Shown: piece after piece, positions 185 to 21,628 of the stretch
Layout: every line of letters begins with the position of its first letter
How positions within the stretch are numbered: the first letter of the stretch is position 1
Virus record (IMG/VR): IMGVR_UViG_3300047121_000266
Location: 1-22,154 of that record
From: a virus
DNA length: 22,154 nt
Strand: one strand, 5' to 3'
Made by a program: the position numbers and the translations under genes
Notes under the pieces: generated by a model
Seen by the model: the letters and a program-made list of their open reading frames with translations, nothing else
Databases searched by the model: none
What the model was told of the DNA's origin: nothing

Positions 185-568
185 ATGGCCCTCGAACCCG
201 CATTTGCTGTCACGCCTCGCATCGCAATAGTCAACGTCGCCACCGCAAACACGAACCGCGACGGCACTGGCACCGTTGCCACGCTCATCACAGGGGCCAG
301 TACCGGGACGCGAATCGCGGAGATCGTGGTGCAGGCCCGCGTCACGACCACCGCAGGCATGGTGCGGATTTTCCTGCACGACGGCACCAATTTCTTCTTC
401 TTCGATGAAGTCAGCATCGCCGCTGCAACCGTGTCTGCGAGCGTGAAAGGCACTCGTGTCAGCACGACCTTCAACAACCTCGTCCTGCCAAATGCGTCGT
501 GGTCGATCCGCGTCAGCACGCACAACGCGGAGTCGATAGACGTGACGGCTCTCGGGGCAGACCTGTGA
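185..568 (+). CDS. Small beta-rich virion fibre/decoration protein
   Basis: A 127-aa protein with no signal peptide or membrane segment, rich in Thr, Val, Ser and Ala with alternating hydrophobic residues, as expected for a beta-sandwich. AGGAG at 171-175 overlaps the stop of the upstream fibre gene and lies 9 nt before the ATG. Features such as MVRIFLHDGTN (about residues 59-69) and LPNASWSIRVSTHNAESI near the C-terminus recall small proteins that phages encode directly after fibre genes. The stop overlaps the next start in a GTGA arrangement, so the two genes are probably translationally coupled. A role as a fibre tip or capsid decoration is inferred from position; no enzymatic motif is visible. 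Confidence 0.6.
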   Translation: MALEPAFAVTPRIAIVNVATANTNRDGTGTVATLITGASTGTRIAEIVVQARVTTTAGMVRIFLHDGTNFFFFDEVSIAAATVSASVKGTRVSTTFNNLVLPNASWSIRVSTHNAESIDVTALGADL

Positions 569-1425
569 ATGCCGGGATTTTGAATAGTGGCTATGCGGCC
601 CCGGCTATGCCTGCGCCGATGCTGGGGAGACCAACGCCGGTCCCGTTGCCAGACGATCAGATTTATGACGCCGACGCAGCGGACTACCTACGCCGCGTAG
701 AGGCCGCGGATGGCGCGCCGCTAGAGCGTGGGATTCGGGTGGCGATTAATGACCTCGTCGTATCGCTGAAGAATGACGGCACTTGGGGACGACTGGGTGC
801 GGCCTGCATCCTCATGGGCGCGCGGACGCTGTCTGGTGCGCTCACGCCGCTCGTCGGCCCAGGACCAACGAACAGCAACTTCGTAACCGGCGACTACAAC
901 CGCCGCACGGGGCTAATTGGCAACGGATCGACAAAAACCCTTAACAGCAACAGAGCGCAGAACGCCGATCCGCAGGACGATGTTCATATGTGTGTCTATG
1001 CGACTTCAGTTGCAACAACTACCGGCGGCTTCCCTGTGTATATCGGCGTCGGCTCTGGCAGCGCTGGAGACTGCCACATTCTTGTGTCAAACAACGCAGT
1101 CGACGTGCTCGCTCGGATGCGCAGCGCTACGGTTGACACGTTTACTGGCCGCGCCACGGCGACGGGCCTAATCGGCTTCTCTCGCACGCAGGGCCACTGG
1201 TTCGCCGCGACCGCCGGGGCCAGCTCCCGGCAGTTCGCCCGTGCATCCCAGGCGTCGCGCACGGAAAGCACGCGAGTATTTTCTTCGCTCAACTTGAGCA
1301 CCGGCGTGGCGAACTTGTTTAGCAACGCGCGTCTGTCCTGGTACAGCATTGGCCGGGCCGTCGATCTGCCGGCACTCCAGGCGAGGCTGGATCAGTTTGT
1401 CGCTGGCGTGAGGGCGGCGATATGA
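565..1425 (+). CDS. Putative fibre / lectin-like virion protein
   Basis: A 286-aa protein. I choose the GTG at 565 because it overlaps the preceding TGA as GTGA, the coupling seen repeatedly in this operon; the frame is open further upstream to an ATG at 499, but that start would lie deep in the preceding gene. The N-terminus is Ala/Pro-rich. It is followed by a segment (YDADAADYLRRVEAADG, about residues 32-48) and a central region with GARTL and GDYNRRTGLIGNGSTK. This pattern occurs in phage fibre or appendage proteins and looks like a jelly-roll or concanavalin-like fold in which the ligand is usually a glycan. The C-terminal half is Ser/Thr/Ala-rich. Its place after a collagen-like fibre supports an appendage role. 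The family is recalled from pattern only, so function is tentative. Confidence 0.55.
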   Translation: MNAGILNSGYAAPAMPAPMLGRPTPVPLPDDQIYDADAADYLRRVEAADGAPLERGIRVAINDLVVSLKNDGTWGRLGAACILMGARTLSGALTPLVGPGPTNSNFVTGDYNRRTGLIGNGSTKTLNSNRAQNADPQDDVHMCVYATSVATTTGGFPVYIGVGSGSAGDCHILVSNNAVDVLARMRSATVDTFTGRATATGLIGFSRTQGHWFAATAGASSRQFARASQASRTESTRVFSSLNLSTGVANLFSNARLSWYSIGRAVDLPALQARLDQFVAGVRAAI

Positions 1426-1745
1426 CGCTCGGTGATTTGCCGCTCCCGATCTCCTACGACGACGCGAAACAGTACGCGCTCGTATTCACGCTGCCACTCG
1501 CCGCGCGGCTCGCCGAACTGCACGCGGTCCACGGCCATCCGGCCTGCGTTCCGGTGCCGCGAGCGATGACAGACGGGCGGTTGATGCTCTCGGCTGATCT
1601 GCTCACCGAGGTGATGCCCGGCGGGATGCTCCACGCCATGTGGCGAGCGGCAGACCAGGCGGTGCTGCTCGCAAGCGTCGAGGTGCTGCCATGGGACGAG
1701 GCCGTGGCGATGTTGCCGAGAGACGCAGACGGCGTGACAGGTTGA
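1422..1745 (+). CDS. Hypothetical protein
   Basis: A 107-aa protein whose ATG overlaps the previous stop as ATGA. It is mixed alpha/beta by eye with no membrane segment, cysteine cluster or recognisable catalytic motif. It begins with MTLGDLPLPISYDDAKQYA and has a hydrophobic central part (ADLLTEVMPGGMLHAMW). I do not recognise the family. It is the last gene of the fibre block; a 21-bp gap separates it from the carbohydrate cassette. It may be a fibre chaperone or a small structural partner of the gene before it, but nothing in the sequence shows this directly. Confidence 0.6.
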   Translation: MTLGDLPLPISYDDAKQYALVFTLPLAARLAELHAVHGHPACVPVPRAMTDGRLMLSADLLTEVMPGGMLHAMWRAADQAVLLASVEVLPWDEAVAMLPRDADGVTG

Positions 1746-1766: not shown

Positions 1767-2837
1767 ATGGAGCACGACTTCGCGCTATCCATCCACGCCT
1801 ACTACGCCGGCGAGCTCGACACGGGCCGCAGGGCCTGCGAGCGACTGCTGTCGTCGCCGCTGCCCGAGGCCACCGAGCACCTCGTGCGGTCCAATCGCAC
1901 CTGGTACACGCCGACACTGGACACCCTCGTGCCCGTCCTGCCGGTGCGGATCGACGTGCCGCCGGCCGAGCCGGGCTGGTCTACGTTTAATCCGACGCTG
2001 ATCCGCCACGCCGGGCAGCTGCTGGCGATCGTGCGGTCGAGCAACTACCAGATCGTCAATGGCCAGTACCAGATGCCGGCGGCCGACGGCGGGCAGATCC
2101 GCACCCGGAACCAGCTCGTGCGATTCACCGGCGAGCTCGGCGTTGTGGATTGCCGCACGATCACGGACCCGGACTATCCCAGGAGCGGCTACGTCGTCAC
2201 CGGCCTCGAGGACTGCCGGCTGCGGCATACCCAAACGGGTATAGGCGTGTCGGCCACCGTGCGAGACGTGGCACCGTTTACGGACGGGCGGTGCCGGATT
2301 GCAGCGGCCGACCTGGACGTGGACACGGCGACGCTGGCAAACCTCAGGGTGCTCGACAGCCTGGCCACGCCGGGCGACGAGAAGAACTGGATGCCGATCG
2401 AGGGCCGTGGCGGCTGGCTCTACGGCAGCCACATCAACGGCCACGTCGTCACGGTGGACGACGACCCGACGCTGCCGGGCGCATGGCAACTCTGCCGCCG
2501 GTCGCCGTCGCCCGTTCTCGCGCGTGGCTTCCGTGGCGGCTCGCAGCTTGTGCCGTTCCGTGATGGCTGGCTGTGCTTGATTCACGAGGTGGCGATCGTC
2601 GATGCAGGCCACAGAGCCTACGAACACCGGTTCGTGTGGTTTGACAATTGGCTGCGGCTCGCGCGGGTGTCGCCGCCGTTCACGTTCCAGGTCCACCGAG
2701 CGATCGAGTTTGCAGCCGGGCTGGTAGCCGAAGGCGACCGTGTGATCGCGTCGTATGGCGTGCGTGACGCCGAGGCATGGCTGGCGGAACTGAGGGCCGA
2801 CGACGTATGGCAGCTACTCTCGTCACCGGCTACGTGA
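1767..2837 (+). CDS. GH130/GT108-like five-bladed beta-propeller protein
   Basis: A 356-aa protein. Residues 5-50 look like a short helical TPR-type segment, with AYYAGELDTGRRACERLL then LVRSNRTWY. The remainder has motifs that recall the GH130/GT108 (COG2152/DUF377) five-bladed propellers: FNPTL (74-78), VRSSNY (89-94), GLEDCR (146-151, where the family often has EDPR), EKNWMP (205-210), RGGSQLVPF (256-264), HE (273-274), HRFVWFD (287-293), IEFAAGL (313-319) and SYGVRDAEAW (329-338). Family members are mannoside phosphorylases or beta-mannosyltransferases acting on mannosides. It opens the glycan cassette, has no obvious Shine-Dalgarno sequence, and overlaps the next gene by 31 bp. Whether it breaks or makes a glycosidic bond cannot be read from sequence. 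Confidence 0.65.
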   Translation: MEHDFALSIHAYYAGELDTGRRACERLLSSPLPEATEHLVRSNRTWYTPTLDTLVPVLPVRIDVPPAEPGWSTFNPTLIRHAGQLLAIVRSSNYQIVNGQYQMPAADGGQIRTRNQLVRFTGELGVVDCRTITDPDYPRSGYVVTGLEDCRLRHTQTGIGVSATVRDVAPFTDGRCRIAAADLDVDTATLANLRVLDSLATPGDEKNWMPIEGRGGWLYGSHINGHVVTVDDDPTLPGAWQLCRRSPSPVLARGFRGGSQLVPFRDGWLCLIHEVAIVDAGHRAYEHRFVWFDNWLRLARVSPPFTFQVHRAIEFAAGLVAEGDRVIASYGVRDAEAWLAELRADDVWQLLSSPAT

Positions 2838-3511
2838 GGCTCGACAGTGTCCACCGGCCGCACGACCGCTACGCCAAACTCGGCCGCCGGCTCCTGGGCC
2901 TCGGGCAGCCCGGCGTCGCCTATTACGACGGGCCCGAAAAAGACCTCGTGTCGTGCATCACGACCAAGGTGCGGCCGACTTCGCTTAAACGCTGCTGGCT
3001 GCACGGCCCGGCCGTCGGGGCCCAGCCGCCGCACGGCGACCCGGTCAAAGACACGGTCGCCTATTGCGTGGTGCAGCACCAGAAGTCGAAGTGGCTGGCC
3101 GATGCCGCCGCAATTGTCGATTCGGACCTGCTGGTCTGGATCGACTTCGGCATCTTCCATCTGCCGCAGGTGACGGACGACCTAGTCATGGATTACCTCG
3201 ACGTGATCAACGACACGGCACCACGGGACAAGATCACCGCCCCGCAGGCGTGGCCGCTCACCGGTCGCCCGCTCATCGACTGGTCGAAGCCGGCGTGGTA
3301 TCTGCTCGGCGGCGTCATGGTCATGCCCACGGTGCTGTCGGGCTGGTTCCACGACAAGTGCGTCCAGTACGCCACGCTGCAACTTGAGAGCACGGGCCGG
3401 GCGACGTGGGAGGTCAACACCTGGGCCGCAATTGCCCGGGACAACCGCAACCGGTTTGCCTTCTACCAGGCCAACCACGACGAGACGATCTTCAGCGGGT
3501 ACACGCCATGA
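2807..3511 (+). CDS. HtrL/YibB-like putative glycosyltransferase, copy 1
   Basis: A 234-aa protein beginning MAATLVTGYV. I choose the ATG at 2807 because a GAGG-type site lies about 11 nt upstream and the hydrophobic VTGY strand then sits near the N-terminus as in the family; another ATG lies at 2777. Motifs expected for HtrL/YibB-like (PF09612) proteins are visible: VTGY (6-9), KSKWLADA (93-100), the strand VWIDFGIF (110-117) with the metal- or sugar-binding Asp, WEVNTWA (201-207) and ANHDETI (222-228). These proteins are predicted GT-A-like sugar transferases found in lipopolysaccharide and capsule loci. It ends in an ATGA overlap with a clear paralogue. Substrate is unknown. Confidence 0.68.
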   Translation: MAATLVTGYVRLDSVHRPHDRYAKLGRRLLGLGQPGVAYYDGPEKDLVSCITTKVRPTSLKRCWLHGPAVGAQPPHGDPVKDTVAYCVVQHQKSKWLADAAAIVDSDLLVWIDFGIFHLPQVTDDLVMDYLDVINDTAPRDKITAPQAWPLTGRPLIDWSKPAWYLLGGVMVMPTVLSGWFHDKCVQYATLQLESTGRATWEVNTWAAIARDNRNRFAFYQANHDETIFSGYTP

Positions 3512-4197
3512 AAGCCATGGCCGTCACCGGCTTCGTACACAACCCGTTCCCGGCCCGGCATCTGACCCAGGGCCAGTGTGCCGACCTGGGCGGCCGGCTG
3601 CGGGACGCCCTCGGCGTCCGCCTGCACACGTTCCAGGCAGCCCGCCTCGAGGACTGCTGGGCTCACCGGCTGCTCAGGGAAAACCCCGCGCTCATGCCGT
3701 CGTGTGCCAGCCCGCCGGCCGACCGGTTCCACGAGCCGGCCGACATGACCAAAAGCAACGTCGTGCTGTTGCAGCGGTACGAGTGGATGCGACGGGCGGC
3801 CGAACTCTACCCGGACGTCGATGTGTTTGCCTGGGTCGAATACACGGTTCTCAAGCAGCGAAACGTCACTCCCGACGTGCTGCGGTCGTTCATGGACGCC
3901 CTGGAGCAGCACCCGTGCGACTCGGTCACGCTGCCGGGCTGCTGGCCCAAAGGCGTAATTAACGACGCTGACGCTCACTGGCGTTTCGTGGGCTCGTGCT
4001 GGGTGTGCCCACGGCACCTGATTGGGTCGGTGTTCGATGCGGTCGAGACTGTGGCCAGCCTGCGGACCAGGCTCACGGGCCGCCTGTCGTGGGACATGAA
4101 CACGATGGCCTACGTCGAGCTGCTCGACGTGCTGCCGGTGCGCTGGTATCCGGCGGGCCACGACGAAACGCAATTCACGCACTACGGGAGATGGTGA
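3508..4197 (+). CDS. HtrL/YibB-like putative glycosyltransferase, copy 2
   Basis: A 229-aa paralogue of the preceding gene. The same landmarks appear in order: AVTGF near the N-terminus, TKSNVVLLQRYEWMRRA (81-97), FAWVEYTVL (107-115), WDMNTMA (195-201) and AGHDETQF (216-223). The Asp of the WIDFG strand in copy 1 is replaced by Glu (WVEY), which could change metal or donor use or reflect loss of activity. The ATG overlaps the preceding stop as ATGA. The open frame extends upstream to 3406, but the overlap and the N-terminal match to copy 1 support 3508. The two copies probably arose by tandem duplication and diverged strongly. Sugar-transfer activity is inferred from family resemblance only. 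Confidence 0.62.
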   Translation: MKAMAVTGFVHNPFPARHLTQGQCADLGGRLRDALGVRLHTFQAARLEDCWAHRLLRENPALMPSCASPPADRFHEPADMTKSNVVLLQRYEWMRRAAELYPDVDVFAWVEYTVLKQRNVTPDVLRSFMDALEQHPCDSVTLPGCWPKGVINDADAHWRFVGSCWVCPRHLIGSVFDAVETVASLRTRLTGRLSWDMNTMAYVELLDVLPVRWYPAGHDETQFTHYGRW

Positions 4198-4823
4198 TGA
4201 CGCTGCTTTGTGAACTGGCCGACAAGCATCAGACCGACAAGGGCGGCCGCTCGACGACCTACGGTGGCGTTGCTGGCGACACTTGCCACAACTACACGCC
4301 CTCCTACGACGCCATGTTTGGCAGCCGGCGCAACACCGTTCGCCGGGTGCTCGAGGTCGGCGTCAACGCCGGCTGCTCGCTTCGCATGTGGGAGGAATAC
4401 TTCCCGTCTGCCACGATCGTCGGGCTCGACATCCGCCGCGAGGTGCTGTTCACGGCCGGGCGGATCCAGTGTCACTACGCCGACCAAGGCAGCGGTGCGT
4501 CGCTTCTGGCCGCCGTGGAGGCCGCTGGCGGCGGGCCGTTCGACCTCATCATCGACGACGGGTCGCACGAGGACTGGCACCAGATCGTGACGGCGGAAAC
4601 GCTGCTTCCGTTCGTGGCCCCCAGCGGGGCGTTTGTCATCGAAGACATTGAGATCGACTGCCGGCCCGAGCTGCTCGCGGCCCGGATTCAGATGCCGCCC
4701 GGTTTCGCCTGGCGGCCGGTCGCATGCGGCGTGGGCATCGGCAAGGCGCGGTGCCACCCGGCGTGCCGGTTCTGCGGTGGCGCGGCCGGCGAGACGCTCA
4801 TCGTGTTTGAGAGGCTGCCGTGA
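4197..4823 (+). CDS. Class I SAM-dependent O-methyltransferase-like protein
   Basis: A 208-aa Rossmann-fold methyltransferase. The N-terminal signature ELADKHQTDKG (6-16), followed by HNYTPSYDAMF (31-41), is characteristic of sugar/macrolide O-methyltransferases of the Methyltransf_24 or mycinamicin/macrocin type. Motif I is LEVGVNAG (52-59), motif II is GLDI (76-79), and IDDGSHE (119-125) is the conserved catalytic/metal-binding region. GGGAG at 4186-4190 lies 6 nt before the chosen ATG at 4197; ATG 4191 and GTG 4194 are in frame alternatives. The C-terminus carries a CHPACRFC cluster (186-193), unusual for the family and possibly metal-binding. Placed between glycosyltransferase-like genes, it probably methylates a sugar hydroxyl, for example as a chain cap. 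The substrate is inferred. Confidence 0.75.
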   Translation: MTLLCELADKHQTDKGGRSTTYGGVAGDTCHNYTPSYDAMFGSRRNTVRRVLEVGVNAGCSLRMWEEYFPSATIVGLDIRREVLFTAGRIQCHYADQGSGASLLAAVEAAGGGPFDLIIDDGSHEDWHQIVTAETLLPFVAPSGAFVIEDIEIDCRPELLAARIQMPPGFAWRPVACGVGIGKARCHPACRFCGGAAGETLIVFERLP

Positions 4824-5869
4824 AGATCGGCGTCTACGCCCTGGCCCGCAACGAGGCAAAGCACGTCGCCGACTGGGCGGCCTCGTGCCAGGAGGCCGAC
4901 GTGCGGGTGGTCACCGACACCGGCAGCACCGACGGCACGGTGGAGGCCCTCGAGGCGGCTGGCGTGACCGTGGCCCGTGGCAACGTCGTGCCGTGGCGGT
5001 GGGACGACGCTCACAACCTGTCGCTCTACCACCTGCCGGCCGACGTGGACGTGTGCGTGCGGCTCGACCTCGACGAGCGGATTCAGCCCGGCTGGCGGCA
5101 AGCGATTGAGCGGGCGTGGACGGGCGGCACCAACAACCTCCACTACCGCTACGTCTGGTCGTGGCAGGCTCCTGGCGTGCCTGGCCTGTGGTTTCACTCC
5201 GACCGAGTTCACGCTCGACACGGGTTCCGCTGGTCCCAGGCGACCCACGAGGGCCTGACGTGCTGGGCCGGCGAGAAGGTGGCGGTGTTCGCCGAGGGAC
5301 TGGAGATCCACCACCACCGTGACACGGGCAAGAAACACAAGACGGACCTCAAGCTCCTGCGGGTGGCGGTGCGGGAGGCTCCTCACGACCCGCGCCCGCT
5401 CTGGTATCTGGCCCGGGAGGAGGAGTGGGCCGGCTGCCCGGAGGCTGCGGCCACGTTTGCGGCCTACCTCGCCATGCCCCACGGGCAGGCGACCGAACGG
5501 GCCTATGCCTACCGGGCCATGCACCGGCTGACGGGCGAGGAGCAGCACCTGCACGCTGCCGCTAAGGCGGCCATCGGCGAACCCGACGCCTGGCAGCAGC
5601 TCGCCCTGTGCCACTACCGCCGGCAGGAGTGGGAACAGTGCTACGGGTTTGCCCAGCAAGCCATCGCATCCGAGTGGCCGAGCACCCACGCAACGGATCC
5701 GCTGGCCAAAGGCAAGGCGTACGACCTGGCGGCGGTGGCCGCCTGGAACCTCGGAAACAGGCCCGAGGCCCTCACCCTGGCCCGGCAAGCGTTGGCATCA
5801 TGCCCTGACGACCCGAGGCTCGTGGCGAACGTCACGAACATGGAGCGTCTCTTGGAGGTGATGGCGTGA
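4820..5869 (+). CDS. GT2 glycosyltransferase with TPR-like C-terminal domain
   Basis: A 349-aa protein. Residues 1-160 are a GT-A family 2 transferase: MKIGVYALARNEA at the N-terminus, the nucleotide-sugar binding DTGSTDGT (33-40), and the metal-binding LDLDE (82-86). A His-rich segment EIHHHR follows at about residue 162. The C-terminal 180 residues are Ala/Leu-rich paired helices (for example RPLWYLAREEEW and DAWQQLALCHYRRQEWEQCYG) that read as TPR-like repeats, as found in protein O-glycosyltransferases and GT2-TPR proteins. The GTG start overlaps the methyltransferase stop as GTGA. The end overlaps the tail-terminator gene in the same way, tying the cassette to the tail operon. TPR domains can bind acceptor protein, which suits virion-protein glycosylation, but the acceptor is not known. 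Confidence 0.82.
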   Translation: MKIGVYALARNEAKHVADWAASCQEADVRVVTDTGSTDGTVEALEAAGVTVARGNVVPWRWDDAHNLSLYHLPADVDVCVRLDLDERIQPGWRQAIERAWTGGTNNLHYRYVWSWQAPGVPGLWFHSDRVHARHGFRWSQATHEGLTCWAGEKVAVFAEGLEIHHHRDTGKKHKTDLKLLRVAVREAPHDPRPLWYLAREEEWAGCPEAAATFAAYLAMPHGQATERAYAYRAMHRLTGEEQHLHAAAKAAIGEPDAWQQLALCHYRRQEWEQCYGFAQQAIASEWPSTHATDPLAKGKAYDLAAVAAWNLGNRPEALTLARQALASCPDDPRLVANVTNMERLLEVMA

Positions 5870-6309
5870 GTTCCATGCTAAAAGACCTCGCCGACGCTCT
5901 GGCTGATGGCCTCGACGCCACGACGTTTACAAGCGTGGCCACGCAGCCGACCGTGCAGCGGGTCAATTGGCCGAGCTACGACGTCGAGGACATGGCCGAC
6001 CCGGTCGTGGCCGTGACGCCAGGCTCGGACACGATCGAGCGGGTGGATCGAACTCGGCACCAGCACGACTACACGGTCAACGTCTTCGTCGGTCGCCACG
6101 CGCCGACCGACGCCCTGGCCGACGGGATGCTCGAGCTCGCCGAGGAGATCGTAGACACGATCCTCGCCCACTCCTGGGGCGCGGTGCAGTTCCCCACGGG
6201 CGTGACCAGCCCGCAGGCGATCACGATCGACATCAACCCAGACGATGCCCTCCAGGAACGCAACGTCTGGCGGGCGGTCATCACGGTCACCTACCGGACG
6301 TTTCGCTGA
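5866..6309 (+). CDS. Tail-terminator-like protein
   Basis: A 147-aa protein starting at a GTG that overlaps the GT2 stop as GTGA. It opens with a helix (MLKDLADALADGL), then beta strands including HQHDYTVNVFVGR (about residues 65-77), and a central helix (GMLELAEEIVDTILAHSW), closing with WRAVITVTYRTF. This helix-strand order with an aromatic-rich final strand matches siphophage tail-terminator or minor tail proteins of about 130-150 aa. These form the hexameric ring that ends the tail tube and joins the neck. The next genes are HK97 gp10-like and tube-like, which is the classical order. Family assignment rests on length, topology and synteny rather than a diagnostic motif. Confidence 0.65.
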   Translation: MSSMLKDLADALADGLDATTFTSVATQPTVQRVNWPSYDVEDMADPVVAVTPGSDTIERVDRTRHQHDYTVNVFVGRHAPTDALADGMLELAEEIVDTILAHSWGAVQFPTGVTSPQAITIDINPDDALQERNVWRAVITVTYRTFR

Positions 6310-7136: not shown

Positions 7137-7475
7137 ATGGCCATCACGCTGGGCAAAGACGTCACGATCACCGGGCTCACCGGTGCCCGCACGATCACGC
7201 TCAACAACACCGCCAACGAGATCGACGTGACCTCGTTTGCAGACGGCTCGGCCGGCTTTCGCAAGTTCAAGAAGGCGCTCATCGAGCAGACGATCGAGGT
7301 GGAGTGCGTCGATTCCCCGGGCGTCAGTATTGGGGCCTCGTTCACGCTGACCGACACGGGACTCGCCACCAACAACGGGATCGAGTACGTCGTGACCAAC
7401 ATTGCCCGCGGCGAGCCGATCGACGGCATCCAGACGTTCACGGTGTCGGCGTCCCGCTTCAAGACTCAGACCTGA
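7137..7475 (+). CDS. Tail-tube-like protein, paralogue 1
   Basis: A 112-aa beta-rich protein with the N-terminus MAITLGKDVTITGL. GGAGAGG lies 4 nt upstream of the ATG. EIDVTSFADGSAGFRKF (about residues 28-44) is the kind of loop-strand found in siphophage tail-tube proteins, followed by EQTIEVECVD and the C-terminal IDGIQTFTVSASR. Tube proteins form stacked hexameric rings around the tape measure. Two further genes with the same N-terminal octapeptide pattern and the same IDG-x-x-T(F/Y)TV ending follow in tandem, so the tube gene is triplicated. This copy, closest to the promoter and preceded by the strongest ribosome-binding site, is the likeliest main tube subunit. The tube identity is inferred from pattern and synteny. 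Confidence 0.62.
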   Translation: MAITLGKDVTITGLTGARTITLNNTANEIDVTSFADGSAGFRKFKKALIEQTIEVECVDSPGVSIGASFTLTDTGLATNNGIEYVVTNIARGEPIDGIQTFTVSASRFKTQT

Positions 7476-7493
7476 CGAAAGGAACCACGATCC

Positions 7494-7814
7494 ATGGCCA
7501 TTGCTCTCGGCAAGGACGCATCCGCTCCTCCGTTCGGCACCGACATCATCTCGGCGACGTTCACCGAGGAGGTGGAGGTCATCGACGTCACCAACCGCAC
7601 CAACGCCAGCGGCACCACCGGCAACCCGGGCTATCGGGCGTTTGACGCTGGGTTCAAGTCGCAGACGTGGGAGATCGAGTGCCACGACGCCACGGGGCTG
7701 ATCGCAGCCCTGGAGAGCAACACGCCGACCAGCAGCTTCCTCGTGATGAACGTCGTGGAGAACGCTGCCATCGACGGAGCGGTCACGTACACCGTCACCT
7801 GCCGGCGGGGCTGA
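7494..7814 (+). CDS. Tail-tube-like protein, paralogue 2
   Basis: A 106-aa protein starting MAIALGKDASAP, with AAAGGA at 7478-7483 about 10 nt upstream. It shares with the preceding gene the MAI-LGKD start, a strand pair EVEVIDVTNRTN, the segment QTWEIECHDATGL, and the ending AIDGAVTYTVTCRRG. Between these anchors the sequences differ greatly, with a GTTGNPGYRAFDAG loop here replacing the SFADGSAGFRKF loop of copy 1. The 18-bp gap on its upstream side and 4-bp gap on its downstream side indicate one operon. It may be a second tube component, a tube-end ring or a surface decoration of the tube. The duplication is directly visible; the role is inferred. Confidence 0.58.
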   Translation: MAIALGKDASAPPFGTDIISATFTEEVEVIDVTNRTNASGTTGNPGYRAFDAGFKSQTWEIECHDATGLIAALESNTPTSSFLVMNVVENAAIDGAVTYTVTCRRG

Positions 7815-7818
7815 TCCC

Positions 7819-8175
7819 GTGGCGATCACCCTCGGCAAAGACTGCACCGTCTCGGCCGGCGGAAACGTCGCCAGTGCGCGGAACGTCACGTTCTCCTCTT
7901 CGGCCCGCACGATCGAGGTCGAGGAGTTCGGCAGCCGTTACTCGACGGTCTACACGACCGGCTACGAGCAGTCGGTGTCGATCGAGTTCAACGATTCAGC
8001 CGACGCCGCTGGCCTTATCACGGCCCTCGAGCAAGGCGCGCAGATCACCGTCTCGGGCGGTGCGGGCGGCTGGTCGTTCCCGGCTGTCGTGACTGGCGTG
8101 TCGGAAAACGATTCGATTGACGGCGTGGCTACATTCACGGTGGAAGCGCGGCGAACCCGAGAGGGGCTGCGATGA
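7819..8175 (+). CDS. Tail-tube-like protein, paralogue 3
   Basis: A 118-aa protein starting at GTG, 4 nt after the previous stop, with GGCGGGG as a weak upstream site. The peptide MAITLGKDCTVSAGG repeats the N-terminal signature of the other two copies. It is followed by TIEVEEFGSRYSTVYTTGYEQSV, where the loop sits in the position of the SFADGSAGF loop of copy 1. SVSIEFNDSADAAGLITALEQG resembles the ATGLIAALES part of copy 2, and the ending SIDGVATFTVEARR matches both. The C-terminal codons overlap the chaperone gene as ATGA. The stronger resemblance of copies 2 and 3 suggests they split from each other after copy 1. Role as tube or tube-like protein is inferred. Confidence 0.58.
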   Translation: MAITLGKDCTVSAGGNVASARNVTFSSSARTIEVEEFGSRYSTVYTTGYEQSVSIEFNDSADAAGLITALEQGAQITVSGGAGGWSFPAVVTGVSENDSIDGVATFTVEARRTREGLR

Positions 8176-11283: not shown

Positions 11284-12227
11284 TGCCTACCTTCACTTGG
11301 GTCGAAGACCAGTCGAGCCGGTCCGCATCCATCGTCCGCAAGGGACGCAAGGCGACCAGCAACTACAAAAAGTCGTGGAAGATCTTCGGCTCGTCCGACG
11401 ACTTGGCCATCCACGCCGACATCGACCAGACGCTGTGGTCGCAATACCTGTTCTGGCAATACCCCGGACAGCCTCAGAACCAGCTGCACCTCGACCACTA
11501 CACGCTGGAATACTTGGGCGATGAAGCGTGGCAGCTCGAGGCCACCTACGTCAAGGAAGGTGCCGAGGATCCGAGTGGCGACAGTGGCGGCGGCGGCGAC
11601 GGCAGCGGCAATGGGTTCCGCCGGAGCCGGTCGTTTGACACCAGCGGCCAGACGTCGCACATGACGCAGGCGATCGCCGTTCCGCCAGATACTGGGGAGC
11701 GCAAGTATCAGCCCGGCCTTGCAGACCCTGCGCCAGATATGTCGGGCATCATCGGCGTGGACGGCAATTCCGTTCAGGGCGTGGACGTGGTCATTCCGGC
11801 GTTGCAGTGGACGGAGAGCTACGACGTGCCGGCTGCGTACGTCACCACTGCCTACATCAAGGCATTGTCTCGTGTCACAGGCACGGTCAATAACGCTGCG
11901 TTCCGTACGTTCCCGGCTGGCGAGGTGTTGTTTCTTGGTGCGTCGGGATCGCACGAGTGGGACGCAGAAAAAGGCGACGGCCCGTGGAGCCTGACGTACA
12001 AGTTTCTTGCCAGCCCGAACGCAGGTGCTGGGCAGACGCTGCCGGCACTCACCGTTGGCAACATCAGTGGCATTGAGAAAAAGGGCCACGAGTACCTGTG
12101 GGTGCGGTACGAGAACGCCGTCTCCGACTCCACGCTTGTCAAGGTGCCAAAGCACGTCTACGTGAATCGGGTGTACCGTGACGCCAACTTCGCCGACCTC
12201 GGCATTGGCACTGGAGTCGGTGGCTAA
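11283..12227 (+). CDS. Distal-tail-like protein with two domains
   Basis: A 314-aa protein; its ATG shares one base with the tape measure stop (TAATG). Residues 1-96 (beginning MPTFTWVEDQSS) form one beta-rich domain. A linker of Gly, Ser and Asp (97-112, including GDSGGGGDGSGNG) separates it from a second, larger beta domain with GVDVVIPALQWTESYDV, AAFRTFPAGEVLFLGASGS, WSLTYKFLASPNAG and HEYLWVRYENAV. The second domain resembles proteins found after the tape measure gene in other phages and may be a tube-like or Dit-like ring. Its position directly after the tape measure is that of the distal tail protein that starts the baseplate. The exact family is not recognised. No catalytic motif is visible. 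Confidence 0.6.
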   Translation: MPTFTWVEDQSSRSASIVRKGRKATSNYKKSWKIFGSSDDLAIHADIDQTLWSQYLFWQYPGQPQNQLHLDHYTLEYLGDEAWQLEATYVKEGAEDPSGDSGGGGDGSGNGFRRSRSFDTSGQTSHMTQAIAVPPDTGERKYQPGLADPAPDMSGIIGVDGNSVQGVDVVIPALQWTESYDVPAAYVTTAYIKALSRVTGTVNNAAFRTFPAGEVLFLGASGSHEWDAEKGDGPWSLTYKFLASPNAGAGQTLPALTVGNISGIEKKGHEYLWVRYENAVSDSTLVKVPKHVYVNRVYRDANFADLGIGTGVGG

Positions 12228-12919
12228 TGCCTCGCCAGGACGGACGCATCGAGCAGGGGCAGTCGCTGAAGTCGGCGATCTCGGCGCGCGCTTGGAACCG
12301 GGCGCAGGATGCGGCGGATATTGTGCTGGGGGGGCAGTATGGCTTCGCAGGGCAGCCAGAAATTCCACAACCACAAGCGTTGTATCGCTCAGTTCGCGTG
12401 GTGAAACCTTCGCCTTTCCGTCAGCTTCGATTTGGAATGATTGTTTTTTCTTCTACCGGCGTTCCGTCTGGCGATTCCAACCAAAATGCGATTGGAGTCA
12501 TTCCTCCAGGCACCGTTGGATTGGATTTCGCCGAGCCTTCGTACGCTGTTGCGTTTTCAGATCGCCGCCAGACTGCAAATAAAACTTTTGGCGTGATCGT
12601 GAGCGGCACATTGCCGGAACAAAACGGCGGCGCAACCGTAGCCAAAATTTGCACTAACGGAACTTGTTTGGCAATTGTGCGAAAAAACCCAGGTGTGTTT
12701 CTGCCAAAAGTCAGGCCCGCTGTTATTCGCTACGACTCCGACACCCAATACAATCTTCAAGGAATTGCAGAGGACACGGAATGTGGCCCTGCGGATCTTG
12801 TGTATTGGACAAACATTCGAGCGTTTAGCGCATCGCGACAAAACGCTGAAAACGTTGCGTCACCAGAACCGCTAGACGAAACCTTGGAAAACGTTTACTA
12901 CGCTGTGGTTCGGCTTTAA
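12227..12919 (+). CDS. Putative tail-tip protein, mosaic gene
   Basis: A 230-aa protein starting in a TAATG overlap. The first 45 codons (MPRQDGRIEQGQSLKSAIS and the following helix ARAWNRAQDAADIV) use GC-rich codons like the upstream tail genes: I count 43 of 60 G+C in the row 12241-12300. From about 12360 the same gene becomes AT-rich (27 of 60 in the row 12421-12480), with Asn, Lys, Ile and Phe more frequent and a beta-rich sequence. This is a chimeric gene: a conserved attachment helix joined to a foreign C-terminal domain, the pattern expected for receptor-binding or baseplate-peripheral proteins. The domain itself is unrecognised. It continues with the next gene in the same composition and a TAATG overlap. 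Confidence 0.55.
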   Translation: MPRQDGRIEQGQSLKSAISARAWNRAQDAADIVLGGQYGFAGQPEIPQPQALYRSVRVVKPSPFRQLRFGMIVFSSTGVPSGDSNQNAIGVIPPGTVGLDFAEPSYAVAFSDRRQTANKTFGVIVSGTLPEQNGGATVAKICTNGTCLAIVRKNPGVFLPKVRPAVIRYDSDTQYNLQGIAEDTECGPADLVYWTNIRAFSASRQNAENVASPEPLDETLENVYYAVVRL

Positions 12920-14970
12920 TGAGCGAGTGTCATGACTGCGACCAGGTGGAAATCGACCTGCTGATTGGTCGAGAGCCGTGGCGCGTATCTCGCAGCGTAG
13001 GGCATACCGGTCCAACTGGTGCGATTGGCGTCGCGCAAGACATGCGTTCGCCAACTGGCCCTTATGCGGCAATTGTAGAGCCGGAATTGTGTGGATGCGG
13101 ACCTGTGGGGATTAACGCTACCGCTACGTTTGGCTGGGTGCAACGCGAAGTTTTTCAAGATGGAACGCTGTTTGTCTACGCACTAGCCAACGACGACTTG
13201 TCCGCTGGAGCGTGGGTTTCAGTGGAAATAATTGCAAACCGGGACATTCCGATCGATACGGTTGACCGTGCAACTTTGCCCCTGTCGGCAGGAAACGATG
13301 CGCTTACCTTTGGTTTTGGGAGTCCTGGCAGTTTTTACGACATCCTAACCAGCGCCGTACACATTGAAGATGGCTCGTATGTCGTGGCAGAGCGAAGCAT
13401 GCTAGTTACGATCCAAAACAACTCGTATGCAGATAGCGCTACACCTGCGTATTTCAAAAACGCGAGATCGCGTGATTTTACTGGTCCCGTCAGGGTCGCT
13501 GCAGGATACGGATCCACTGTGATCCATGAACTTGAAGGCATGGCCCCAGCAGCATCACGCTTGAACAATATTTATTCGGCAACCAGTTTGAGTGTTGCGG
13601 CAATGCCGTTCGACAACACCTGGCAGTCGTCTGCCGCTGTCACTCGGGTGTCTTTGTTGGCGCGTTTCGATGACCGCTCTGTTGCACTTCCCGTAAATAT
13701 TCCAAATACAGAGTTTTCTCCGAACGAAGATGCCTCGCTGCTTAGGAACGCCATTCGTTTTGACTACGACGCCGCTCGCGTGCCAAACGCACAGACGGAA
13801 CCACTCAATCCGCCTTACGGAATAGCGCCGGCAACAGTAGATCGCGTACTTGTGCGCCATGTCGTCGGCAATCGGCGAACAGACGTAATTGTGCCTGCTT
13901 CTGCGACTGGGCCAAAAAACGCGGAGTTGCCGCCGATTACGAGTGCTCCGCTTAGGACAAATGCAAGTTCGTTTTTTATTCGCTATGGCGACAACAGTAG
14001 TGTGCCGCGGTCGGTGTTTGAAGACACTCGCCATAGCTTGCGGGCTGACATGCATGACAAGCCGCAATGCTATGCATTTGACGGCCCAACGTGGCATGAG
14101 CGTTCACTGGTGCGTTACGGATCAAATCTTGCTGTCGATGGAGCGCGCCACAAATTGACCGTATCTTTTGACTGGCAACCGCCAAGCGCAAGTCAGTACG
14201 CACTTGTGCGAGCCACATCGGGCGGAAGCTGGGCAATCCGAATCAATCCCCCTTTTGAACTTATTGGCGGCAGCGTAATCGATTTGCGCCCATCAATTCA
14301 AACGTCAAATCTAATGCCCGGAATGTATGCATCCGCAACTTGCGAGCTTGCGGAAATTGAAATTGACTCCGTGCCCGGCGAGTTCCGCCGCACGAACAAT
14401 GAAATTGTGGAATATGATGTGCCAGTAGATTTGCGTGTTCAGCCATTTATGCATGTATGGGCATACACTGACATTTTGCAGTCTGCAAGGCCAGCTCCAT
14501 CGTCCGTGTCGTTGCCATTGCCTGGCGAGTCCGAAATGACGCTGGATGCATACACACAATATGCCGCAGCTTCTCCGGCAGCATGGGGACTGCAGTTTCT
14601 GTCTTTTCCATCCGCGACGCTGCGTCTTCATGTTGAATTGTGGGCAAAACTCATGCTTCGCACGGTTGAACCTGTACATCCTGAATACAACCGACTTCCG
14701 TTTGGCATGAATTTAGACAAGTGGGACGGAGAGCGAGTTTGGTACGCGCGCCTCGTCGCGCCGCAGCCCGTGGTGTTTGTTTTGACCCCGCAGCAATGCG
14801 ACGCGATTGGCAACGGCCAAACCGTATCTGGATTGCGACGCCGGGCAAATCCGCAAAATTTAAACAACACTGCTGAAACTGGTTCTCCATGTAGCGTGAC
14901 GTGCTCATTTGCCTAAACGGGAGCCGACTGTCATCTGACTTGCGGGCGCAATCGACATTTGTTTTGTCGT
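12360..14970 (+). other. AT-richer island within tail-tip genes
   Basis: Base composition drops from about 70% G+C to about 45-55% in counted 60-base rows, starting inside the gene at 12227 and ending just before the second promoter-like element at 14979. Codons ending in A or T become common. Adjacent genes on both sides are GC-rich. This points to a segment acquired from another phage, most likely by exchange of receptor-binding genes. Confidence 0.65.
12919..14916 (+). CDS. Putative tail-tip / receptor-binding protein
   Basis: A 665-aa protein with a TAATG-coupled start. It opens with MSECHDCDQVEIDLLIG and a short collagen-like turn (GHTGPTGAIG, about residues 29-38). The rest is long, beta-rich, low in Lys, with no membrane segment and no catalytic motif that I can identify. 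It contains repeated strand-like stretches and many Pro/Asn/Ser residues. A cysteine-bearing C-terminus (SPCSVTCSFA) mirrors the cysteines at the N-terminus and CGCG near residue 60. Placement at the end of the tail module and the AT-rich composition shared with the preceding half-gene suggest a host-contact protein. The longest tail gene after the tape measure is often the central tip or receptor-binding protein. Function is inferred. Confidence 0.55.
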   Translation: MSECHDCDQVEIDLLIGREPWRVSRSVGHTGPTGAIGVAQDMRSPTGPYAAIVEPELCGCGPVGINATATFGWVQREVFQDGTLFVYALANDDLSAGAWVSVEIIANRDIPIDTVDRATLPLSAGNDALTFGFGSPGSFYDILTSAVHIEDGSYVVAERSMLVTIQNNSYADSATPAYFKNARSRDFTGPVRVAAGYGSTVIHELEGMAPAASRLNNIYSATSLSVAAMPFDNTWQSSAAVTRVSLLARFDDRSVALPVNIPNTEFSPNEDASLLRNAIRFDYDAARVPNAQTEPLNPPYGIAPATVDRVLVRHVVGNRRTDVIVPASATGPKNAELPPITSAPLRTNASSFFIRYGDNSSVPRSVFEDTRHSLRADMHDKPQCYAFDGPTWHERSLVRYGSNLAVDGARHKLTVSFDWQPPSASQYALVRATSGGSWAIRINPPFELIGGSVIDLRPSIQTSNLMPGMYASATCELAEIEIDSVPGEFRRTNNEIVEYDVPVDLRVQPFMHVWAYTDILQSARPAPSSVSLPLPGESEMTLDAYTQYAAASPAAWGLQFLSFPSATLRLHVELWAKLMLRTVEPVHPEYNRLPFGMNLDKWDGERVWYARLVAPQPVVFVLTPQQCDAIGNGQTVSGLRRRANPQNLNNTAETGSPCSVTCSFA

Positions 14971-14978
14971 TCCTGCCC

Positions 14979-15014
14979 CACCCCCTGCGGATTAGCCTCC
15001 AGCCGCCATACGCT
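14979..15014 (+). promoter_or_regulatory. Promoter-like element upstream of GT71-like gene (copy B)
   Basis: CACCCCCTGCGG at 14979-14990, then 18 nt, then TACGCT at 15009-15014, matching copy A at 7068-7103 in sequence and spacing. It lies in the largest noncoding gap (14917-15118), at the exact place where composition returns from AT-rich to GC-rich. The rest of the gap holds a weak 5-bp inverted repeat (CGACA...TGTCG at 14953-14969) and a possible mini-ORF at 15041. It probably starts transcription of the accessory and lysis genes. Confidence 0.5.
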
Positions 15015-15118: not shown

Positions 15119-16045
15119 ATGACATTCCGCACCGCCCTCGCTGACCGTCTCGCCGCTGCGGCCCCGCCGCTGCCGCCGGTCGCCGACTACCGTGGCCTCG
15201 TCATCGTCGCCGGTGGTGAGCTCTACGGCCGGCTGGCGTGGAACCTCATCACCACGCTCCGGGGCCTGGGCTGCACGCTGCCGGTCGAGCTGTGGCACTT
15301 CTCCCACGAGATGCCCGAGCCGATGCGTTCGGTGTTCACAAGTGAGCCGGGCGTTCGCCTGGTGGACGTGGGCCAATACTGCCGGGAGCACGGCATTGCT
15401 ACACGGGCCGTGGCCCGGTCGCCGCAGCACGCAGGGTGGTGGCTCAAGTCATTCGCCCTGCGGCATTGCGGGTTCGCCGAGGTCATGCTCTTGGACGCCG
15501 ACAACGTGCCAGCCGTCGATCCCACCTGCCTGTTCCACGACACGGCCTACGAGCGGGCGGGTGCGATGTTCTGGCCCGACCTGCCGCCCAGCCGGGAGCG
15601 TGGCCAGTGGGTGCCCGAGGGGGCGTGGCGGGCCGTGGGCCTCGAGCCCGTGCCGACGGCCCGGCCGTTTGAGTCTGGGCAAATCCTGGTAAACCGCCGC
15701 CGGCACCTTCATGCCCTCGACGTGGCCCTGGTGCTGAACGACCACAGCGACGAGGTCTACCAGTTCGTCTACGGCGACAAAGACACGTTCCTGCTGGCGT
15801 GGCACCTCTGCGGGCAGCGTTACCACATGCCGCCCAAAAACCCAGCGTGGCGGCATCCGGCTATTTGCCAGCACGACAGCAACGGGAACCTGGTCTTCCA
15901 GCACGCCTGTGCCGCCAAGGCCGAGATCGCCCGGGGCGAGGTCGTGCCGGGCATCGTCAATCGCCGGTTCGCCCCGGATGCCGCTGCCGAGTTCGACCGG
16001 CGGGCCGCAGCGGCACTCGCCCGCTGGACGCCTCATGTAGCGTGA
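15119..16045 (+). CDS. GT71-like (alpha-mannosyltransferase-type) glycosyltransferase
   Basis: A 308-aa protein; ATG at 15119 is chosen over in-frame TTG 15107 and GTG 15110, none having a good ribosome-binding site. The order of motifs recalls GT71/Mannosyl_trans3 enzymes: GLVIVAGG strand (26-33), LPVELWH (54-60), WWLKSFAL (107-114), the metal-binding LLDADNVP (124-131), FWPD (151-154), ESGQILV (185-191), and YGDKDTFLLAW (218-228). GT71 enzymes transfer mannose or a related sugar from a nucleotide donor. It is separated by about 9 kb from the main glycan cassette but lies in the same late gene cluster, directly after the tail-tip genes. Sugar and acceptor cannot be deduced. The stop overlaps the next gene. 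Confidence 0.78.
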   Translation: MTFRTALADRLAAAAPPLPPVADYRGLVIVAGGELYGRLAWNLITTLRGLGCTLPVELWHFSHEMPEPMRSVFTSEPGVRLVDVGQYCREHGIATRAVARSPQHAGWWLKSFALRHCGFAEVMLLDADNVPAVDPTCLFHDTAYERAGAMFWPDLPPSRERGQWVPEGAWRAVGLEPVPTARPFESGQILVNRRRHLHALDVALVLNDHSDEVYQFVYGDKDTFLLAWHLCGQRYHMPPKNPAWRHPAICQHDSNGNLVFQHACAAKAEIARGEVVPGIVNRRFAPDAAAEFDRRAAAALARWTPHVA

Positions 16046-19950: not shown

Positions 19951-20495
19951 CTACGGGTCTGCTCGTCATCGCCGTCGCCATCGCCCTGGCATGGCCGTGG
20001 ATCAAGGCCCACGCGCCCACGATGGACCTGACCCGGCTGGACCGGCACCACTATGCCGCCCTGGCCCTCGGCGTGGCCGCCCTGCTGTCGTTCGCCAACC
20101 GCTCGACTGGCAAGCCTGAACCCGAGCCCGGCCCGCCACAGCCCACCACGCTTGATCTGCGGGGCACCTTTGTCGGCCCTGACGCCGCAGCCAATGCAGC
20201 CACCACGGCGGCCCTGTGCCACGAGCTGGCCGCCGAGATCGAATGGGACGCCACACAGCCGAATCCGCTGATCACGACCGGCGTCGCCTTTGACGAGCTG
20301 CGGACGCGCAGCCGGCTCCTGCTCTGCCGAGGCGTGAGCCTGGGCGAGAAGCATCCCCGGGCCCGGGCGGCGATCGAGGCGTATCTCAATGCCAACGCTG
20401 GCACGTCTGGCGGCCCGCTGACGCCCGAGGCTAAGTCCAAGTGGGTGGCGGCCTACCGTGAGGTCGGTGAGGCTGCGGAGGCCGCCGTGCGATGA
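19947..20495 (+). CDS. Membrane-anchored protein with two TM segments
   Basis: A 182-aa protein from the ATG in an ATGA overlap at 19947. Residues 3-19 (TGLLVIAVAIALAWPWI) and about 35-47 (YAALALGVAALLS) are membrane segments. They are followed by a Pro/Glu linker KPEPEPGPPQP (about 54-64) and a soluble, helical C-terminal domain of about 115 residues. The short linker KPEPEP recurs in the protein encoded at 21636. The topology (hairpin plus external or internal soluble domain) is consistent with a holin-like or spanin-like role in lysis, but no homologous family is recognised. It is directly upstream of and coupled to the cysteine-peptidase gene. Confidence 0.58.
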   Translation: MTTGLLVIAVAIALAWPWIKAHAPTMDLTRLDRHHYAALALGVAALLSFANRSTGKPEPEPGPPQPTTLDLRGTFVGPDAAANAATTAALCHELAAEIEWDATQPNPLITTGVAFDELRTRSRLLLCRGVSLGEKHPRARAAIEAYLNANAGTSGGPLTPEAKSKWVAAYREVGEAAEAAVR

Positions 20496-21628
20496 GCGTG
20501 ACGCCCCGCGCCCGCTGGCAGATCGTCGCCGCCCTGGTGCTCCTGGGGCTGGGATTGTGGCTGGCCATCCAGCCCGGTCGGGCTCCGGTCGTCGGCGACA
20601 ACTTCGGATATACGCCCAACCCCGAAGGTGTGGCCGAGTTCCTCGCTGAACTGGGTGAGCAGCGGTTCTTCCGCCAGGCCGCCCCCGAGGCCATGGCAAA
20701 GGCCGAGCGGGTGGACACGTTTCTCTATCGGGCGATGGCCAAGGCCCACCAGGCCCGCTACGGCCGGCCCTGGGTAGTCGAGCGGCAGGGCATCGGAGAC
20801 TGTGTGGCCTGGGGCGCGATGCACGCCGTGTGGTGTAGCGAAAGCATCTCGTGGGATCTGAAGCTTGTGCCCGAACCGCCGCTGATGCCGAGCGTCGAAG
20901 CGATCTACGGCGGCTCGCGCGTGGAGGCCCGCAACAAACCCGAGGGCTCGGGCGGGTGGAGCGACGGGTCATTCGGCGGCGCGGCTGCCCACTGGCTGCG
21001 GGACTGGGGCGTGGTCTACCGCCAGCCGTTCCCGGATCTCGGCTACGACCTCACGGCCTACTCGGCGGAACGGTGCAAGCAATGGGGCAACTGGGGCGCG
21101 GGTGGGCAGGGCGACAAAGGCCGGCTCGACGCCGTTGCCAAGAAGCATCCGGCCCGGCACGTCGTGGCTGTCCGCACCTGGGAGGAATGCGTGGCGGCCC
21201 TCACCGCCGGCTTCCCGGTGACCATCGCCTCGAGCCAGGGCTTCGCCAGCCGTACCGACGAGTCGGGCGTGCTCGCCCCGTCTGGCACCTGGATGCACCA
21301 GATGTGCCTGGTCGGAATTCGCTTCGCCGAGAAATCGCCGCCCGGCGTGCGGCCGGTCGATGCGTGTCTCGTGCTCAACAGCTGGGGCACGAAGTGGCTG
21401 ACCTACGCCGGCAAGTATCCGGCTGACCAGCCCGATGGTTCGTTTTGGGCCGAGCGCCCGGTCGTCGAGCGAATCCTGAAGCAAGGCGACTCGTACGCCA
21501 TCGGCGACATCAAGACTGGGTTCGCGTGGCGCGACATCCATAACGGCCGGTGGCTGATGCCGGCACCGATCGACTCCCTATCGTCCAGCGGGACGGCAGT
21601 GCCCATGAGCCTGTCGCTCGCGCAGTGA
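20492..21628 (+). CDS. Membrane-anchored papain-like cysteine peptidase
   Basis: A 378-aa protein; ATG 20492 overlaps the preceding stop as ATGA. Residues 10-26 (QIVAALVLLGLGLWLAI) form a single N-terminal membrane anchor or uncleaved signal. The catalytic core has the landmarks of clan CA, family C1: QGIGDCVAW with Q99 and C104, WMHQMCLVGIR with H269, and CLVLNSWGTKW with N296. Glu/Gly/Trp-rich stretches lie between. Cysteine proteases of this class are rare in tailed phages, which usually lyse with glycosidases, amidases or NlpC/P60 enzymes. In this cluster it may act as a lytic enzyme, process virion proteins, or cleave envelope proteins. The active-site residues are seen; the substrate is unknown. 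Confidence 0.78.
   Translation: MSVTPRARWQIVAALVLLGLGLWLAIQPGRAPVVGDNFGYTPNPEGVAEFLAELGEQRFFRQAAPEAMAKAERVDTFLYRAMAKAHQARYGRPWVVERQGIGDCVAWGAMHAVWCSESISWDLKLVPEPPLMPSVEAIYGGSRVEARNKPEGSGGWSDGSFGGAAAHWLRDWGVVYRQPFPDLGYDLTAYSAERCKQWGNWGAGGQGDKGRLDAVAKKHPARHVVAVRTWEECVAALTAGFPVTIASSQGFASRTDESGVLAPSGTWMHQMCLVGIRFAEKSPPGVRPVDACLVLNSWGTKWLTYAGKYPADQPDGSFWAERPVVERILKQGDSYAIGDIKTGFAWRDIHNGRWLMPAPIDSLSSSGTAVPMSLSLAQ

Follow-up and report, generated by a model that had tools for sequence, protein, structure and literature searches.

The virus record IMGVR_UViG_3300047121_000266 of IMG/VR was analysed over its whole length of 22,154 bp, referred to here as the window; its upstream end is cut off. Inside the block of virion genes, between fibre-like genes and the head-tail and tail block, lie five consecutive genes, A to E, whose neighbours overlap by 1–31 nt (Table 1). 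The stop codon of E overlaps the start of the putative tail terminator gene as GTGA at nt 5866, coupling the two genes translationally. An earlier note, made from the letters alone, had described these overlapping genes and the GTGA junction at nt 1767–5869, both of which are confirmed, and had proposed a pathway for a virion glycan. As an overall reading that idea is supported. We favour, with rather more confidence than doubt, the view that A, the variable genes behind it (the slot) and E form an optional, exchangeable protein-glycosylation module that acts on a virion fibre and varies its outer glycan.

Table 1. Genes of the cassette and its surroundings in the window.
Feature	Position (nt)	Strand	Remarks
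g01, small fibre-associated protein 5′ of the cassette	185–568	+	Homologues adjoin the cassette in L005, L016, L063 and L077
Fibre-like protein	565–1425	+	phrog_17104, E-value 3e-73; relatives in Synechococcus phages
g03, final gene ahead of the insertion site	1422–1745	+	Runs straight into the putative tail terminator in cassette-less L240
Gene A, helical (TPR-like) hairpins at the N-terminus and GH130/GT108-fold propeller	1767–2837	+	
Gene B (slot), HtrL/YibB-like GT-A-fold glycosyltransferase	2807–3511	+	
Gene C (slot), paralogue of B	3508–4197	+	
Gene D (slot), class I SAM methyltransferase, Methyltransf_24 type	4197–4823	+	Alternative GTG start at 4194
Gene E, GT2 domain and C-terminal TPRs, putative initiating protein O-glycosyltransferase	4820–5869	+	
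Putative tail terminator	5866–6309	+	Function from position, weak HMM match
Gene F, GT71 (alpha-mannosyltransferase MNN1 family), after the tail-tip gene	15119–16045	+	

Synteny, slot exchange and empty sites

Scans of IMG/VR yielded at least 579 relatives with A and at least 209 with E. They belong to a family of uncultured phages, mostly from lake water. Loci were called with profile hidden Markov models (HMMs) and a gene caller written in house, whose calls agree with the genes of the window, and were counted as non-redundant when E was below 95% identity or the slot differed. The order A, slot, E is found in 71 such related loci, and the putative tail terminator lies directly 3′ of E in all 69 where the contig continues. 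Between the window and locus L005, the ratio of nonsynonymous to synonymous substitution (dN/dS) is 0.07–0.18 for A to E, indicating purifying selection. Synteny over 71 loci and this ratio together demonstrate that the cassette is not a product of chance. In distant relatives A, C, D and E retain about 47–53% identity and B 35%; the tape measure and the putative terminator retain about 28%.

The slot holds zero to three genes, in 15 combinations among the 71 loci. A single Methyltransf_24 protein is the commonest content (40 loci). HtrL-like glycosyltransferases, GT2, a GT34-like protein, FkbM and further methyltransferases make up the others, and all slot families recognised by Pfam are methyltransferases or glycosyltransferases. 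One subgroup (L021:8619–9569 and relatives) has a GalE-type NDP-sugar (nucleoside diphosphate sugar) epimerase inserted directly 5′ of A. Judged from these loci, the module is exchangeable in all its parts except A and E, which are constant. The description of an unusual mixed cassette understated this variability.

Closely related loci differ in the slot. L109 and L102 are 94% identical in nucleotide sequence across A and 89% identical over a stretch that starts near base 6 of E and runs into the tail genes, whereas their slots differ entirely: that of L109 contains B-C-D (about 1.9 kb) and that of L102 one methyltransferase (about 0.55 kb). The breakpoints fall in the final ~60 nt of A and the initial ~6 nt of E. 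L107 and L113 are one FkbM gene insertion apart, with flanks 94.5–97.5% identical. Between L109 and L113, A is 91% and E 89–97% identical, but the terminator and tail genes are 68–71% identical. Since A and E are shared where the tail genes diverge, the comparison indicates that the module also moves between phage backbones.

A scan for carriers and non-carriers was anchored on the capsid gene, independently of the cassette. It gave six non-carrier loci in which the putative terminator comes immediately after the fibre gene, and A and E are both missing throughout these six records (29–41 kb). In one of them, L240, the putative terminator starts 3 bases after g03. Conservation of the cassette with the tail genes therefore holds among carriers, where the next gene is always the same, and not in the part of the lineage that is devoid of the module.

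The encoded proteins

Structures of A and B were modelled with AlphaFold2 on alignments made up of relatives of the window. The model of A (pLDDT 94.3) is a five-bladed propeller, and its top 41 Foldseek matches in the PDB are all GH130 proteins or the Leishmania MPT (GT108). In Pfam, A falls below the gathering cut-off of Glyco_hydro_130 (PF04041, 14.3 vs 26 bits, E-value 0.019), and the profiles of A and B gave nothing meaningful against the PDB by sequence alone, the folds alone being informative. A profile alignment of A with bona fide GH130 proteins by hhalign has an E-value of 7e-7. Residues N75, R90, E148-D149-x-R151, K206-N207, H273, Y285 and D334 of A align to GH130 motif residues, and all of these except R151 and N207 are in the set that is invariant in 53 relatives of A. 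The catalytic Asp of GxEDxR (D149) and the Asn, Arg and Asp of the mannose site (N75, R90, D334) are thus kept. The equivalents in BT3780, Asn74, Arg89, Glu141-Asp142, Lys199 and Asp363, are mannose-binding or essential (PMC4599007). The motif spacings of A and BT3780 are equal, with 15 from N to R and 57 from D to K.

The Arg of the LHR motif is taken as one basic phosphate contact of GH130 phosphorylases. It aligns with G220 in A, which is thus short of one of the three basic phosphate-site residues of the phosphorylases; the assignment of these residues is drawn partly from PMC4599007. Because the motif residues are invariant and the LHR Arg is replaced, A appears to be an active yet non-canonical member of GH130/GT108, which may be a transferase, a hydrolase or a phosphorylase. 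It shares the fold and the catalytic-site residues N75, R90, E148-D149, K206 and D334 with GH130 phosphorylases and hydrolases and GT108 mannosyltransferases, but differs from them in its identity of only 10–20%, its N-terminal helical hairpins, the missing phosphate-site Arg and the low Pfam score. The capped mannose-type oligosaccharide of the earlier note is not established, given that A keeps the mannose-site residues without the phosphate-site Arg and that gene F (below) is optional. Cellular homologues of A are few: a scan of about 85,000 genomes, which required exact peptide patterns, gave 6 loci. An open frame of 734 aa in an Ignavibacteriae metagenome-assembled genome (L157:6844–8979) fuses two tandem A-like domains and has no obvious phage context.

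Gene E encodes 349 residues and matches phrog_13126 (beta-1,4-glycosyltransferase) at 1e-74, with tetratricopeptide repeats (TPRs) in its C-terminal part. D83-x-D85-E86 is invariant in 25 E sequences, and some members of the family match PF00535, as expected of a GT-A domain with a DxD motif. The closest solved relatives of the catalytic-domain profile are GmaR (1.4e-7), 7msk (1.9e-7), which we take to be ThuS, and SunS (5e-4). GmaR is a flagellin O-GlcNAc (O-linked N-acetylglucosamine) transferase and SunS and ThuS act on peptides; the top solved relatives are therefore protein or peptide glycosyltransferases. Unlike the O-linkage proposed for E, SunS and ThuS attach S-linked sugars to bacteriocins, and GmaR doubles as a transcription anti-repressor, which is a feature of its own. 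The TPRs resemble the peptide-binding TPR of prolyl-4-hydroxylase below threshold, a hint only. In L042:2722–3126 E appears to be split into two open frames, by a frameshift or an assembly error.

E can also be likened to SgtA of C. difficile, by layout and size and not by alignment. SgtA has 358 aa, with a GT2-type domain and C-terminal TPRs, and initiates O-glycosylation on Thr (PMC7157674). In vitro it O-GlcNAcylates Thr of the collagen-like GPT peptides of BclA3, which is encoded adjacent to it (PMC7157674).

Among the slot genes, B has a confident model (pLDDT 94.6) with a GT-A fold, matched by Foldseek to LARGE1 and GT6 (E-value about 1e-5, probability 1.0, TMq 0.45–0.54). It carries W-[IVM]-D-x-G instead of a plain DxD motif. 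Its matches to HtrL_YibB lie below the cut-offs of Pfam (PF09612, 13.8 of 24.1 bits, E-value 0.05) and NCBIfam (TIGR02192, 19.6 of 264.9 bits, E-value 6e-4), so that B resembles HtrL/YibB by a weak HMM match and a GT-A fold but is not a member by score. A Pfam match of B to copper amine oxidase (0.0012, under the cut-off) was taken as chance because of the GT-A fold. C is 28% identical to B (1e-18) and has no family match of its own in Pfam or PHROGs. D matches phrog_21658 methyltransferase (7e-15) and Methyltransf_24 (2.2e-5, 25.7 of 26.3 bits); this and its SAM-binding motif mark it as a class I SAM (S-adenosylmethionine) methyltransferase. The C-terminus of D (nt 4740–4800) has a conserved Cys cluster, RC-x3-C-x2-C, odd for a small methyltransferase and possibly a metal site.

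F matches PF11051 (GT71) at an E-value of 2.8e-35, with 122.5 bits against a cut-off of 22, and has a weak match to MNT2 in the PDB. The earlier note had counted it as a sixth gene of the set. The GT71 assignment holds; however, F occurs in only 7 of the 28 loci that cover its site and is for this reason better seen as a separate optional glycosyltransferase near the tail tip, outside the cassette proper. The other gene calls of that note were also right, as HMM matches, predicted folds and the paralogy of B and C agree, although protein by protein only D, E and F matched families in HMM searches, with A and B below threshold and C unmatched.

Collagen-like fibres and the proposed pathway

Of the 36 carriers, 27 have collagen-like repeats, defined as at least six GXY triplets between the capsid gene and A, as does 1 of the 6 non-carriers (p = 0.011, a value that ignores kinship); the reverse-strand control gave 0 of 42. 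GPT repeats are found in that region in the near relatives of the window, L001, L003 and L005. In the unrelated lake phage DSL-LC01, a homologue of E (39% identity) lies just 3′ of two collagen genes. When its protein was used to find E-like loci, collagen was nearby at 53 of 80, versus 3 of 80 ribonucleotide reductase control loci. No collagen gene is near the E relatives of the jumbo phages PaBG, Lu11, HRDY3 and NCTB. In many of these loci E or its homologue lies near collagen-like genes, as SgtA adjoins BclA3. SgtA belongs to a bacterial spore-coat system, whereas E is phage-borne, has its place among virion genes of one operon and is accompanied by A and an exchangeable slot.

In the pathway that we infer, including its acceptor, sugars, order of steps and purpose, the module would be expressed together with the virion genes. 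E would bind a virion fibre protein and add the first sugar to Thr or Ser, most likely in the collagen-like G-X-T repeats of fibres whose genes lie immediately upstream. A may add or trim a beta-mannoside-type sugar, and the slot enzymes, here two GT-A proteins and a methyltransferase, would extend, branch and O-methylate the glycan, which A and the slot enzymes together would complete and cap. In some relatives the upstream epimerase could provide the donor. Swapping the slot would alter the outer glycan and leave the initiating and core steps in place. The benefit is probably shielding or altered adsorption.

Several observations weigh against this pathway. The collagen comparison includes only six non-carriers and is uncorrected for relatedness, and the reductase control is imperfect because reductase genes sit away from virion genes. 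The window holds no collagen gene, its upstream end being cut before that region. About a quarter of the carriers (for example L008–L010, L076 and L082) have no repeat of six or more triplets upstream, and collagen repeats are absent altogether from record G008; the target may therefore differ. Thr at the Y position of the repeats was considered as a carrier-specific trait (47% vs 29%) and dropped, since control loci have 58%, so that abundant Thr does not mark out the module. No Ser/Thr-rich C-terminal extension separates carriers from non-carriers in the capsid, decoration and tube proteins. C has Glu in place of the motif Asp of B and may have an altered activity or none. The evidence throughout is sequence and predicted structure.

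One alternative is that the module glycosylates another virion protein, such as the capsid decoration or tail tube, and that the nearby collagen is incidental. The C-termini of mycobacteriophage capsid and tail-tube proteins are glycosylated in this manner, the glycans acting as a shield (Freeman 2023, cited in PMC12619734). The likeness consists in glycans on virion proteins; the likely target here is, by contrast, the fibres. No mycobacteriophage was among the matches to the A and E searches, although an A/E-like pair in mycobacteriophages was not specifically looked for. The coupling of E to the putative tail terminator, its position beside the tube genes and the carriers devoid of collagen repeats would suit this alternative, but the lack of a carrier-specific extension in capsid, decoration and tube proteins and the collagen genes beside E homologues of unrelated phages argue against it, and we regard it as unlikely. 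Among the targets first suggested, the Thr/Ser-rich fibre fits the collagen evidence better, and tube and tip proteins fit less well.

The enzymes might instead change the host surface, through O-antigen or exopolysaccharide, to block superinfection or aid progeny release. HtrL/YibB-type proteins are linked to lipopolysaccharide core loci in enterobacteria, and an integrase in full records of relatives makes a temperate lifestyle probable. However, A to F have no convincing membrane segment, no flippase was found and A to E are proteins of cytosolic type; they hold a constant position in the virion operon, and E resembles protein and peptide glycosyltransferases. Thus nothing in the proteins favours this second suggestion of the earlier note, and we judge it improbable. 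It is more doubtful still that the genes are cargo, auxiliary or in decay, that plays no part in the virion. The module is optional and variable in content, as cargo would be, but it is under purifying selection (dN/dS as above), its catalytic residues are invariant over the 53 A and 25 E sequences, and its place is constant. Glycosylation of phage DNA bases as a defence against restriction, for which phage glycosyltransferases acting on hypermodified DNA are a precedent (cited in PMC12619734), is scarcely credible, as the cassette belongs to the virion operon, E carries TPRs and is related to protein glycosyltransferases, and Pfam found no hydroxymethylase among ten of the larger non-structural proteins from three full records.

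The fixed pair of E and A around an exchangeable slot could constitute a glycan-variation system that gives near-identical lake phages different O-glycans on their collagen-like fibres, a suggestion we make tentatively and hold at somewhat less than an even chance. With the same reserve, such surface chemistry might recombine like a serotype cassette. Phage virion glycosylation, known from a few cultured phages, and collagen glycosylation of the SgtA type are not new. Here a dedicated, precisely inserted module with a swappable middle occurs in an uncultured lineage of hundreds of metagenome contigs. We found no published account of a module that sits at a fixed site of a virion operon and keeps its ends while its middle is exchanged, in a literature search that was thin on subscription papers. 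Should the target be the collagen-like fibre, an enzyme (E) and its substrate motif (GXT) become linked to a mechanism of recombination by which the surface sugars of the virion are changed. A testable function is also gained for the GT2-TPR proteins that other phages encode near collagen genes.

Lifestyle, host and flanking genes

Full records of relatives encode an integrase, and the ten larger non-structural proteins searched with Pfam gave ordinary DNA methyltransferases, a sliding clamp and RecT. The phages are probably temperate, because of the integrase, and probably of siphovirus type. The integrase has no match among phages and weak matches among plasmids. Gene g29 (nt 20492–21628) is conserved and has no Pfam match; its sole relative in the plasmid collection (28%) is in pPLIM01 of Planctopirus limnophila, a possible lead to the host. 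pPLIM01, in which the virion genes of a phage are present in full, resembles a phage-plasmid. Since the fibre has relatives in Synechococcus phages, the g29 relative is in pPLIM01 and the integrase matches are nil or weak, a planctomycete or a picocyanobacterium can be named as host only as guesses.

The tape measure assignment is solid in the window, and those of capsid and terminase are solid in relatives. The labels tail terminator and neck are putative; they come from position, with weak HMM matches. Three tail-tube-like paralogues (112, 106 and 118 aa, about 30–35% identical) stand in tandem at nt 7137–8175 and are kept in most relatives; distant relatives hold fewer. In the tail-tip region (g17/g18, nt 12000–15000) the GC content drops from about 64–68% to 53–55%, which suggests that this part was recently imported. 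In the interval 3′ of g17, moreover, the similarity of the near-identical L109 and L102 is interrupted.

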